Part shown: in pieces, positions 49,410-55,181 of the stretch | How positions within the stretch are numbered: position 1 is the stretch's first letter | Layout: each line of letters begins with the position of its first letter | Assembly (NCBI GenBank): GCA_020629835.1 | Contig: JAHDCO010000003.1 | Coordinates: forward strand, 1 to 64,000 | Origin: Granulosicoccaceae bacterium | GTDB taxonomy: Bacteria; Pseudomonadota; Gammaproteobacteria; Granulosicoccales; Granulosicoccaceae | Length of the DNA: 64,000 bases | Direction of reading: 5' to 3' | The notes under the pieces: model-generated | Told to the model about the DNA's origin: nothing | Seen by the model: the letters and a program-made list of their open reading frames with translations, nothing else | The model's database searches: none | Translations under genes and position numbers: made by a program

Positions 49410-49793
49410 ATGAATCTTGCGCAACGGCTTACCCAGCTTGACGTTTGGCTTTTGTACTGGACGGTGCTTCAGCGACAGTATCGACCTGTTATGGTTTTCG
49501 CTCGGTGTGCGTCTCGATCTGGAGACGGTTACCTGCAGGTACTGTTCATCGTTTGGTTTGCAACAAGGCCAAATACGTCTGGCCAAACCATCGCTATCTG
49601 GCTTATCGGTGTATTTGCTGCCGAGCGCTGCGTATATTTTTTCCTGAAAAACAGTTTAAAGCGTCAGCGCCCTCCCGCTGCGTTGCCCTCGTTTGAAGCG
49701 GTAATTCAAGCGTCTGATAAATTCAGTTTCCCCTCTGGCCACACCTCACCCGCGCTCGTTGTATGGCAAAGGCATTTAAGCGACTCGACGTAA
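49410..49793 (+). pseudogene. PAP2-family phosphatase, 3'-truncated
   Basis: A 127-residue frame that matches the first half of a lipid-phosphate phosphatase of the PAP2 type. Motif 1 is visible as KNSLKRQRP and motif 2 as PSGHT (near residue 112). Motif 3 (SRxxxxxH), without which the enzyme cannot work, is absent: after PSGHTSP the frame passes into sequence of the next gene read in another frame (ALVVWQRHLSDST) and stops. This is best explained by a deletion that removed the 3' half. Residual folding or function is unlikely. Confidence 0.75.
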
Positions 49794-50767
49794 ACGTGGA
49801 TTACCTGTTCAGCGGTCGGCCCTTTAACCGCTATTTCGATATGGACGTATTCGGGAATGCTCGCTATTTTCACGGCTTAACTTTCGCCACAAAGAATGAC
49901 AAGATCAGTTACGTATCTACGCTTCGCAAAGCTCACCTTGCGCGGTTCATAAAAGAAGTACAGAGCCTGGATATCAGCGGCTATGATTTAGTAATCAGTG
50001 ATTTTGAACCCATCACCGCCTGGCGTTCGCGCTTTAGCCAAATACCTTCTTTGGGTATTGGTCATCAATACGCCTTTCACCAGGGTGCGCCCTGGCCAAA
50101 GTACAACTGGGTGGGCAAAGCAGTCCTTAGCGGGTTTGCCCCCGTCAAGCGAGCTATCGGTGTGCACTGGCACCATTTCAATGGCACCGTAGTACCGCCG
50201 ATCATTGACGTTGATTTAACGCATCGACCAAACCCAAAACCCTTTGCTTTAGTTTATTTGCCTTTTCACGATGCCGTATCGGCTGCCTATACGTTACAGA
50301 CCATGCGACACACAAACTTTGTGTTTTACTCACCCTCACACAAAGTCATTAGCAAACAAAACAACATCACGTTAAAACCGCTATCAACCACAAGTTTCCG
50401 ACAGGACTTACAAGCTTGTACGTGGTTAATATCCAGTTGCGGATTTGGCTTGGTATCTGAAGCGTTGCATTTAGGCATACCGATACTAAGTATCCCGTTG
50501 AAGGGCCAAGGGGAACAATTGGCCAATGCGATAGCTTTGGAGCAACTGGGTTATGCCGAGCGTTATCAGAGTTTTAGTCGGGAAAACGTAGAAGCCTTTT
50601 TAGACAATCATCCCATTGAAGCTGAACCAGACTTGCCCCCGATGCAGTACCCGAATGTAGCGGATGCACTGGCACGCTACTGCGCCGAAGGCGCACAAGC
50701 AAATCCACAAGCTCTGGTGGAATCGCTCTGGCAAAAAGAACCGGTGCCCGATCAAAAAGCGGCTTAA
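49763..50767 (+). CDS. MJ1255/VC2487-type glycosyltransferase, N-terminally truncated
   Basis: A 334-residue GT-B protein of the MJ1255 family, marked by VDYLFSGRP, GLTFATKND, DLVISDFEP and LGIGHQYAF. Its C-terminal half has SSCGFGLVSEALHLGIPIL for sugar-nucleotide binding. Family members start with a strand and a glycine-rich GNGH loop about 20 residues before the MAKAF helix seen here. In frame upstream of the ATG one can still read HLTRARC, the end of that loop region, but no start codon, and a TAA follows at 49718. The gene therefore appears to have lost its true start; the Met at 49763 is internal to the family alignment. It overlaps the PAP2 remnant by 31 bases. Confidence 0.75.
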   Translation: MAKAFKRLDVNVDYLFSGRPFNRYFDMDVFGNARYFHGLTFATKNDKISYVSTLRKAHLARFIKEVQSLDISGYDLVISDFEPITAWRSRFSQIPSLGIGHQYAFHQGAPWPKYNWVGKAVLSGFAPVKRAIGVHWHHFNGTVVPPIIDVDLTHRPNPKPFALVYLPFHDAVSAAYTLQTMRHTNFVFYSPSHKVISKQNNITLKPLSTTSFRQDLQACTWLISSCGFGLVSEALHLGIPILSIPLKGQGEQLANAIALEQLGYAERYQSFSRENVEAFLDNHPIEAEPDLPPMQYPNVADALARYCAEGAQANPQALVESLWQKEPVPDQKAA

Positions 50768-50806: not shown

Positions 50807-51568
50807 TTATTCATTGGGTCCGTCGTACGTCCATCGGTAGCCCGGTGGCGTCGGCCCTTTGTTTCTGCCACCTTGTTGTTGTTGCTCCCAGGCATGAGCC
50901 AAAATACCCACTGACCGGCTTAAGCAAAACAATCCTCTGGCCAGTGGCGCTTCGAAACCCAACGAGGCATAAATAACGGCCGTTGCTCCGTCAATATTCA
51001 TCGGTACAGGCTTTCCAGCCTGTTCAGATAACCTGGACTCGATGGCTTCACCGATATCGACATAGGTGTTATCACACACAGACTTATCGGTGGCGCGAAC
51101 CAACTCCATAAGCCGTGGTGCCCTGGGGTCAGTCGGTTTATGGTAACGGTGCCCATACCCTGGTAAATACCGACTACGCTGCTGCCACATCGTCATAGCC
51201 TCTGGTACGCCGTGGTGCTCGGCAAGTAGGAACAATTCAATCGCCTGCTCACCCGCCCCACCGTGAACATCATCGAGTAGATTCACAGCGCTACTCATGG
51301 CTTGATTTAAAGATGCACCACAGGTCATCGCCATGCGAGCTGTAGCAATGCTGGGTGCTTGTGGACCATGGTCCACAGCGGCAACAAGCGCGTGTTCAAA
51401 CAACGCGGCTTGCTCATCGCTCGGCAGGGTACCGCGCAGCATTAGCCAAATCATTTGAGCAAAGCTCACGTTACCAATTAACTGCTGAATGGGTTTCCCA
51501 CGGATATCAATACGACCGGGCTCCATATCTATGATGGCTGTGCGCCACCAGTCAGAAACGTCGTTCAT
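50807..51568 (-). CDS. Citryl-CoA lyase-like (citrate synthase family) protein
   Basis: A 253-residue, short citrate synthase-fold protein. The catalytic residues are all visible: His in DDVHGGAGE, His in GYGHRYHKPTDPRAP, and Asp in NIDGATAVIYASLGF. Full citrate synthases are 370-430 residues; the short form is the one known as citryl-CoA lyase in Hydrogenobacter. It is coupled to a class III CoA-transferase by a four-base overlap, so it probably cleaves a CoA-activated hydroxy-acid, releasing acetyl-CoA. The substrate need not be citrate. Confidence 0.78.
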   Translation of the reverse strand: MNDVSDWWRTAIIDMEPGRIDIRGKPIQQLIGNVSFAQMIWLMLRGTLPSDEQAALFEHALVAAVDHGPQAPSIATARMAMTCGASLNQAMSSAVNLLDDVHGGAGEQAIELFLLAEHHGVPEAMTMWQQRSRYLPGYGHRYHKPTDPRAPRLMELVRATDKSVCDNTYVDIGEAIESRLSEQAGKPVPMNIDGATAVIYASLGFEAPLARGLFCLSRSVGILAHAWEQQQQGGRNKGPTPPGYRWTYDGPNE

Positions 51569-52755
51569 AGTGCACCCTCGTTGCGAAAGGCTTCGATTTC
51601 TGAATCGCTGTAGCCCAAGTCGTAAAGTACTTTATCCGTGTCAGCGGCCAACTCTGGCGGGCCAGAGGCCACCGTTAATGCATCGCCGTTCATTTGTATT
51701 CCTGTTCTGAGGGTTTGCACGCTGCGCCCATCGTCCAGAGTGAAGTCTGACAGCTGATCTCTGTGACGAAATTGCGGCTGCTCTAACGCTTCTTGAACAC
51801 TGAGAACCTGACCCGCTGGTACACCCAGCGCGTTTAATTCTTTTTGCCACACGGCTGCAGGACGACTGCGTAAGACGTCCTCTAATGCAACGTTTAGAGC
51901 CAAACGATTCGCTTTTCGATCATCGCGTGTTTTAAAACGCGTATCGGTTTTCAGTTCCGATAGGCCGAGATGGTCAGCTAAAATTTCCCATTGCTCTTGC
52001 TTGTTCGCCGCGATATTTAACAGGCCATCCTGACACCGAAACGCACCAGAGGGCGCTGAAGTCAGATTTTCATTGCCCGCCGCCACGGGTACTGTTTTCC
52101 CTATCAATAAATTAGACACAGCCCAGCCCATGGTCGCCAACAGCGAATCCAGCATAGCCACATCAATGAACGACCCACGCTTCGGTGCGTTTAGCGCAGC
52201 ACAGATAGCCATAGCCGCAGTTAACCCCCCTACCGTATCGGCCACCGGCCAACCGGCTCTTAGTGGCGCGCTGGTTTCATCCCCGGTAATCGACATCACG
52301 CCAGACAAGCCTTGAATGATTTGATCGTACGCGGGCCGTCCACTTAATGGCCCGGTTTGCCCAAAACCAGAAATTGCGCAATAGATAAGGGTTGGGGATT
52401 CCTCGCGTAATTTGTCGTAATCCAACCCGAGTCGAGTCATCACACCGGGGCGAAAATTTTCAACAACAACGTCTGCTTTAGCAACAAGCTGTTTGAAGAT
52501 TCGTTTACCCGAAGGGTTTTTGAGATTCAGTGCAACCGATTGTTTACCCGGGTTCTGCGCAAGAAACGACACACCCATGTTCTTTTCAGATAGAGCTTGA
52601 TCAACACCTAACTGCCTGGCTAAATCCCCTCGCCCCGGTGCTTCAATTTTTATAACCTCTGCACCCAGGTGCGCCAATTGATGGCAGCAAAACGGGCCGG
52701 CCAGCACGTTAGTTAAATCTAGTACTGTGATACCGGATAACGGTTTTGTTGTCAT
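51565..52755 (-). CDS. CaiB/BaiF-family (class III) CoA-transferase
   Basis: A 396-residue intertwined-dimer CoA-transferase. It opens PLSGITVLDLTNVLAGPFCCHQLAHLGA in part, with VIKIEAPGRGD and VENFRPGVM following as in the family. The catalytic Asp is in VADTVGGLTAA (near residue 170). It transfers CoA between carboxylic acids. It is the first gene of the two-gene unit and provides the CoA ester for the lyase. No third pathway gene is visible. Confidence 0.85.
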   Translation of the reverse strand: MTTKPLSGITVLDLTNVLAGPFCCHQLAHLGAEVIKIEAPGRGDLARQLGVDQALSEKNMGVSFLAQNPGKQSVALNLKNPSGKRIFKQLVAKADVVVENFRPGVMTRLGLDYDKLREESPTLIYCAISGFGQTGPLSGRPAYDQIIQGLSGVMSITGDETSAPLRAGWPVADTVGGLTAAMAICAALNAPKRGSFIDVAMLDSLLATMGWAVSNLLIGKTVPVAAGNENLTSAPSGAFRCQDGLLNIAANKQEQWEILADHLGLSELKTDTRFKTRDDRKANRLALNVALEDVLRSRPAAVWQKELNALGVPAGQVLSVQEALEQPQFRHRDQLSDFTLDDGRSVQTLRTGIQMNGDALTVASGPPELAADTDKVLYDLGYSDSEIEAFRNEGAL

Positions 52756-53039: not shown

Positions 53040-55181
53040 ATGATCAATGTACCCAAAACTTCATACCTCAAAACACCAGGCCGTCTGCACTTAATAAACA
53101 CTGATAGTATCGCTTTTTTCCCTAGGCAAAAAACTCGATTAATCAATCTATTAATCGTATTGACGTTTACGCTAACGGGCTGTGGAGGGGGAGGAGCAAG
53201 TCCAGAAACAAGCGGCACAAACAATTCTACTGAAGTACCAACTCAACTGGCCAGCGCCAATCCATTCGCTGTGATCGAAGGCAATAGCGCAGTCCCTATT
53301 GGAGATATCGAAAGCGTCTCGGATCTAATTGATCGAGACCCACGCCTCACAGGGCTTAAATGGATTTTAGACGAGTCTGAAGAAGCCCAGGGTCTACGAC
53401 GCTCTGGCACCCAGTACACTTTGATAGCGCCTTCAAACAAAGCCTTTTCACCCTACAGTGCACGTCAGTTGGAGAGGATGAAAAATCAAGAACACAGTTT
53501 GACAAGTTTTCTTGATTATCATTTTCTCGATAATTTGTTTTTTACTGGTTCAGAAGATGGCGAGCAAGGCCCCAACGTTCAAGGGTCAATTTTAACCTCA
53601 TCGACATCCGATGGCGTATTGCATCTACATCACAAAGGCAACGTATATCCCGTCAGTGACACTTATGTTTTCGACGATGCCGTTGTTTACATCATTGATG
53701 ACTTGTTTGGTACATACGGCCTGTTTGACCCCGACCCAGGCAGCATCGCAGACAGCCTGACACAGCAATTCGGTGGCAATGTTTTCAGCAACGCGCTAAG
53801 TGTAACTAAGTGGCATGGGTTGCTGGGTAATTCAGAAAGTTCATGGACTGTATTTCTGCCGGATTATTCAGCGGCATACGCGGTCTACAATTTTGCATCC
53901 GCCCGACACGAATATGGGCAGGCAGTGCTCGGTGACGATACGCCCCGCGCGATACACTTTAAAAACTTCATTGAAGATCATTTGGTAGCGCATACCCGAC
54001 ATGAGGATACCCTACTTGATCCAGGCACCCTGACAACAGTTTCTGGAGTACCCATTGATATTGCATTCAACAGCACTCACTTGACCGCCAATAATCACGA
54101 TATTCTGGATACAAGCCCTATAGAATTTACAAACGGCTCGGTTTATAAGGTTCGTACACCGCTAATATCCAAACAGAACTCAGCCGAACCGGAGCTTACA
54201 AAAACGCTTTACCAAACCTTAGCGAATCTAGCTGCAAGGACAAACGACGATCAGGATTTCAACCTAACAGCTGCGCATCTATTCCAAAAGATTATTGAAA
54301 GTACAGGTCAAATTGACCGTTACGATGACCCCAGTGAGCGACTGACGTTGTTTTTGCCAAAACCAAAAGTTGTCCCGTTCACCGACAATGTCATTAGGTT
54401 ATACGCCGCAACAGGAGAATGGGGTAATTGCCATTATCCGTCTGCCTTGGCAAGTTTTGTTGTCCAATCAGAAAACCCGGATTTCGAACTTATTCCGGAT
54501 GTTTTTCCAAACGAATTATCCGCATTGGACTATTTGCACGCCCATACGTTGGCCGGTGCGGATGAAGTGTTTTTTGGCAGTTCGATCTTTGACGAACCAA
54601 AACTCACACTTGCAGGAGAGACGCTGGATTCTACTTCCATTCTTTCAGTCTACGAGCATAATTCAAGTTGGTCACTTACTGAGAAAGCGTTGCGTTCCTC
54701 GCTATTTGAACATATTGCGTCTCCGTCTAACGGGACTATCTACACCATTAACTCAGAAATAAAAACATCACAGCTTACTGCTGCGGATGATGTGTGTAGC
54801 GAATCTGGCTTTAACCTGAGAGAGTCTACTGCAGCGAAAATCACCCGAGCGGGTCACACCGATTTCATGATGGCGCTTGTACGAGCAAACGAAGGTGATT
54901 CACTAGATTCAGGCGCTGCGTTTGTAACGTTCATTCCAACCAACGATGCGCTTTCAGCGCGAGCCGTGGACACGTTCACGTACCAAGAGGCTAAGGACTT
55001 CGTTGAATCACACACAACGACCAACACTACGTTATGGCCCGGCACCATTCGCTCAAGGAATCACTCTGAGTATTCGGTCACTATGGATAGCGCAGGCAAT
55101 GCAAGCGTTAACGGGATCCCCGCAACCCCACTGGACGCTAGCATGCCCAATCTATATATACTCAACAGCGCACTAGATTAA
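53040..55181 (+). CDS. FAS1 (fasciclin)-domain lipoprotein
   Basis: A 713-residue exported protein. A long basic N-region is followed by a hydrophobic core ending in the lipobox TLTGC (Cys near residue 48) and GGGG. Four FAS1-type units can be counted from the recurrent TxFxPxxxA motif: YTLIAPSNKAF, WTVFLPDYSAAY, LTLFLPKPKVV and VTFIPTNDALSARA. The second and third are diverged. FAS1 domains mediate adhesion in other bacteria. The gene stands alone, with a stem-loop after it, and is divergent from the CoA-transferase pair. Confidence 0.8.
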   Translation: MINVPKTSYLKTPGRLHLINTDSIAFFPRQKTRLINLLIVLTFTLTGCGGGGASPETSGTNNSTEVPTQLASANPFAVIEGNSAVPIGDIESVSDLIDRDPRLTGLKWILDESEEAQGLRRSGTQYTLIAPSNKAFSPYSARQLERMKNQEHSLTSFLDYHFLDNLFFTGSEDGEQGPNVQGSILTSSTSDGVLHLHHKGNVYPVSDTYVFDDAVVYIIDDLFGTYGLFDPDPGSIADSLTQQFGGNVFSNALSVTKWHGLLGNSESSWTVFLPDYSAAYAVYNFASARHEYGQAVLGDDTPRAIHFKNFIEDHLVAHTRHEDTLLDPGTLTTVSGVPIDIAFNSTHLTANNHDILDTSPIEFTNGSVYKVRTPLISKQNSAEPELTKTLYQTLANLAARTNDDQDFNLTAAHLFQKIIESTGQIDRYDDPSERLTLFLPKPKVVPFTDNVIRLYAATGEWGNCHYPSALASFVVQSENPDFELIPDVFPNELSALDYLHAHTLAGADEVFFGSSIFDEPKLTLAGETLDSTSILSVYEHNSSWSLTEKALRSSLFEHIASPSNGTIYTINSEIKTSQLTAADDVCSESGFNLRESTAAKITRAGHTDFMMALVRANEGDSLDSGAAFVTFIPTNDALSARAVDTFTYQEAKDFVESHTTTNTTLWPGTIRSRNHSEYSVTMDSAGNASVNGIPATPLDASMPNLYILNSALD

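Follow-up and report, generated by a model that had tools for sequence, protein, structure and literature searches.

The PAP2-MJ1255 gene pair and the locus in the window

The closest described arrangement is the gammaproteobacterial pair formed by a gene for a PAP2-superfamily phosphatase (PF01569) and a gene for a glycosyltransferase of the MJ1255/VC2487 family (TIGR00661). In the PAP2 superfamily, the third sequence motif carries a histidine which is essential to catalysis. The GxGNGH loop of the MJ1255-type transferases corresponds to the glycine-rich loop found in MurG and other GT-B enzymes, and GT-B enzymes require their first strand and this loop. In the literature we searched, VC2487 is named once, as a putative glycosyltransferase which has a ChIP peak of ChiS upstream, and no functional paper on an MJ1255-family transferase or on the pair was found there.

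We analysed a window of 64,000 nucleotides, which is part of a 167-kb contig (JAHDCO010000003.1) in the 4.34-Mb draft genome of a marine gammaproteobacterium of the genus Granulosicoccus (149 contigs, 97% complete, 0.6% contaminated). The locus in the window has the order and the strand of the gammaproteobacterial pair, PAP2 motifs 1 and 2, and the body of the transferase from the histidine of GNGH onwards; unlike that pair, it is without about 300 bp across the border of the two genes, so that both proteins are truncated. In our reading, to which we give a probability of about 0.85 from the sequence comparisons reported here, a recent deletion of about 300 bp broke the PAP2 gene and the MJ1255-type glycosyltransferase gene which follows it, and both products are very probably inactive.

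Two truncated frames and their junction

The whole PAP2 frame (49410-49793, 127 aa) matches PF01569 at positions 3-62 of 130 (E 2.4e-7), and a search of solved structures with it returned PgpB/LpxE-type enzymes. Its remnant carries motif 1 (KxxxxxxRP) as KNSLKRQRP and motif 2 (PSGH) as PSGHTS. In alignment, the likeness to intact PAP2 proteins ends at GHTS, and the stop of the frame comes 14 codons further on. Motif 3 (S-R-x5-H), which is kept by 75 of 78 intact PAP2 proteins (from the best 80 of 129 scan matches plus one added locus), is missing from the window. Since the motif 3 histidine is essential to catalysis, the remnant should be dead: having lost this motif and the last membrane segments, it has very probably no activity left.

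The glycosyltransferase frame stays free of stops over 1 kb, and is matched by TIGR00661 (MJ1255) at positions 21-315 of 321 (E 8e-58) and by PF13528 at positions 31-322 of 322. With a match starting at position 21, the TIGR00661 score is 196.1 bits against an NCBIfam cut-off of 195.9. The remnant is about 42% identical to intact proteins of the same genus. Homology begins at the histidine codon 49742-49744, 7 codons ahead of the ATG at 49763, which is the sole ordinary start codon in the first part of this frame. The N-terminal strand and the GNGH loop are missing, only the histidine and what follows it being kept, while GNGH is found in all 81 homologues (the best 80 of 129 matches plus one). 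By analogy with MurG-type GT-B enzymes, the loss of the first strand and of the glycine-rich loop should abolish activity, and the enzyme is very probably inactive. When solved structures were searched with the transferase, the matches, to other glycosyltransferases in the C-terminal half, were all insignificant. In annotation, neither of the two truncated frames should pass for a working enzyme.

The earlier note on this DNA had described a PAP2 frame with motifs 1 and 2 which switches to an MJ1255-type frame, and had claimed that the phosphatase lost its third motif and the transferase its start and its GNGH loop. The frame positions and the two family matches confirm the switch, and the comparison with intact homologues bears out both losses.

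Table 1. Positions of the two remnants and of their junction in the window
Feature	Position	Strand	Basis or remark
PAP2-superfamily phosphatase remnant, N-terminal two thirds	49410..49748	+	PF01569; 44-49% identity to intact same-genus PAP2
Deletion junction CACCTC(A)	49742..49748	+	Fits the PAP2 (..H-T-S) and glycosyltransferase (H-L-T..) readings; frame arithmetic
Out-of-frame PAP2 tail PALVVWQRHLSDST, then TAA	49749..49793	+	Glycosyltransferase DNA; other frame reads TRAR..MAKAF
MJ1255/VC2487-family GT-B glycosyltransferase remnant, GNGH His to stop	49742..50767	+	TIGR00661, PF13528
Longest ATG-started frame, truncated glycosyltransferase, 334 aa	49763..50767	+	Start at about homologue residue 25

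At the junction, the PAP2 reading is GGC CAC ACC TCA and the transferase reading is CAC CTC ACC. The PAP2 histidine codon lies at 49740-49742, and hence only 2 bp separate it from the histidine codon of the transferase. The two frames differ and overlap by 31 bases, without any in-frame fusion protein; the word "fusing" used in the earlier note needs correcting in this respect. We rejected GGCCAC as a shared sequence. It suits PAP2 only: the transferase frame reads TGG CCA CAC (..W-P-H..) at this place, where GGN CAC would be needed. The microhomology formerly proposed, GGCCAC followed by ACC, is therefore out of register for the transferase, while CACCTC(A) fits both genes. These 6-7 bp are probably the bases shared at the junction. 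As the nearest homologues are only 41-49% identical, we infer the microhomology, its exact length and the sequence which preceded the deletion.

Deletions between short repeats, of the slippage type and independent of RecA, are known in E. coli (PMC5426353). In such deletions, what lies between a pair of short direct repeats is lost and one copy is left, as would be the case here; unlike in that work, the repeat of the window comes from protein alignments and not from an undeleted parent. A direct repeat of 6-7 bp is compatible with such an event. The deletion would have taken place between two copies of CACCTC or CACCTCA, by replication slippage or by another RecA-independent event, and would have removed the end of the PAP2 gene, a short gap and the start of the next gene, that of the MJ1255-type glycosyltransferase. 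Since both enzymes are very probably inactive, the function of the pair would be lost in the lineage of the window.

Two observations were made further along the window. A protein with a citrate-synthase-like C-terminal domain (253 aa) overlaps a CoA-transferase family III gene at 50807-52755; the former has no strong match in the other 26 genomes of the genus. At 53040-55181, a protein of 713 aa has two matches to fasciclin domains and may be a surface adhesin.

Intact pairs, size of the loss and kinship

The same-genus comparison covered 27 sampled Granulosicoccus genomes, that of the window included. In four of them, intact PAP2 and transferase genes are adjacent, with order and strand as in the window; these relatives have the undeleted arrangement, which the earlier note had advised to look for in sister strains. 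In these four pairs, 61 PAP2 residues follow GHTS, the gap measures 36-71 bp, and the transferase has 16 residues ahead of the histidine of GNGH. The two histidines lie 279-314 bp apart, compared with 2 bp in the window. The window thus lacks about 277-312 bp, corresponding to about 60 C-terminal PAP2 residues (motif 3 among them), the gap between the genes and some 16 residues at the N-terminus of the glycosyltransferase. This agrees with the single deletion of a few hundred bases formerly proposed.

We also carried out a wide alignment-based scan of genome contigs and kept the best 80 of 129 matches (loci L022-L101), which come from many gammaproteobacterial families. Three of these 80 loci are same-genus Granulosicoccus; the fourth Granulosicoccus locus was added, making 81 transferases. 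Among these 81 loci (best 80 of 129, plus one), PAP2 lies directly upstream of the transferase in 78, and the distance from the PAP2 histidine to the GNGH histidine is 221-406 bp in the 77 pairs where it is measurable. With its 2 bp and its missing GNGH, the window departs from them by far more than chance would give. When the loci were examined, no PAP2 was detected beside the transferase in Gilliamella (L048, L068) and in one other MAG (L096). The earlier note had named homologues with this fused arrangement and a start at MAKAF as a finding which would refute its reading, and none of the 81 (again the best 80 of 129 and one more) has the fused arrangement or a MAKAF-like start. No truncated locus was seen in the alignment-based scan (best 80 of 129), and the contig scan with a single protein as query found nothing. 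As the patterns of the scan correspond to sequence past the downstream end of the deletion, it would not have missed fused relatives on that account. The genus, family and order searches (the last two covering one and the same set of 48 genomes) gave no relative with the junction of the window and only the four intact Granulosicoccus pairs. The junction is known from one assembled genome.

In maximum-likelihood trees, the transferase of the window is sister to that of Granulosicoccus (UFBoot/aLRT 99/94, with long branches and a warning from the tool), and its PAP2 is sister to the Granulosicoccus PAP2 (100/96). Because both trees give the Granulosicoccus pair as sister, the two remnants belong together, and a single inherited pair is the best reading of them. 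Their identity to the Granulosicoccus pair is 41-49%, whereas the LysR gene beside them shares up to 81% with its orthologues in the genus, which suggests an old split or a separate acquisition of the pair. When we compared empty sites, the LysR orthologue was flanked by other neighbours in two relatives. The pair occurs in 5 of the 27 Granulosicoccus genomes, always with both genes, and the other 22 are without it.

Strong decay of the remnants was not seen, their conservation being equal to that of intact kin. The transferase of the window keeps 61 of 69 conserved residues against 62-63 of 70 in intact kin, and for PAP2 the count is 17 of 18 in both. The transferase departs at two residues, one invariant in the 81 others and one conserved in 80 of these (best 80 of 129, plus one), but other intact proteins show such departures too. 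In the tree, the branch on the side of the window is no longer than that of its sister. As the conservation equals that of intact kin and the branch is not longer, the deletion looks recent by that measure, or else is not fixed.

Competing readings and meaning of the deletion

The same good preservation of the frames would be expected if the living strain were intact, the segment having been dropped by the assembler or the junction taken from a chimeric or minority read. The draft state of the genome, in 149 contigs, and the occurrence of the junction in one genome only point the same way. Nevertheless, at most 6-7 bp are shared, which is far below the k-mers of assemblers, so that a collapse of repeats has no substrate; moreover, neither the missing segment nor a second copy, another PAP2 or a matching glycosyltransferase is present elsewhere in the genome assembly. 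We regard such an assembly or binning artefact as unlikely, and favour a real deletion which is either fixed or common in the population sampled. The comparisons show the missing segment, its approximate size and the intact pair in relatives, whereas the mechanism of the deletion, the loss of activity, its recency and its reality in the living population are what we infer.

One may also imagine that the shortened glycosyltransferase, with MAKAF as its start, is working and selected, being translated by coupling from the overlapping PAP2 remnant. The open frame of 334 aa, the conserved residues retained at the level of intact kin and the overlap of the two frames speak for this; yet every one of the 81 homologues (best 80 of 129, plus one) has the GNGH loop, none of them starts at the MAKAF position, GT-B enzymes in general need what has been removed, and no Shine-Dalgarno-like sequence was seen by eye ahead of the ATG at 49763. 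This makes a working protein very improbable. Slightly less credible still is a shortened enzyme which, without its N-terminal loop, would keep its activity or have a changed one, the PAP2 remnant acting as a leader peptide to which its translation is coupled.

As we read it, the event is an ordinary case of pseudogenisation by a small deletion. It belongs to routine gene decay and its main import is for annotation. The genes for a PAP2 phosphatase and an MJ1255-type glycosyltransferase are conserved as neighbours in many families of Gammaproteobacteria, and most of the sampled Granulosicoccus genomes lack both together. This suggests a common pathway for the two enzymes, dispensable as a whole. 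The pair may be of more interest than the event which broke it here.
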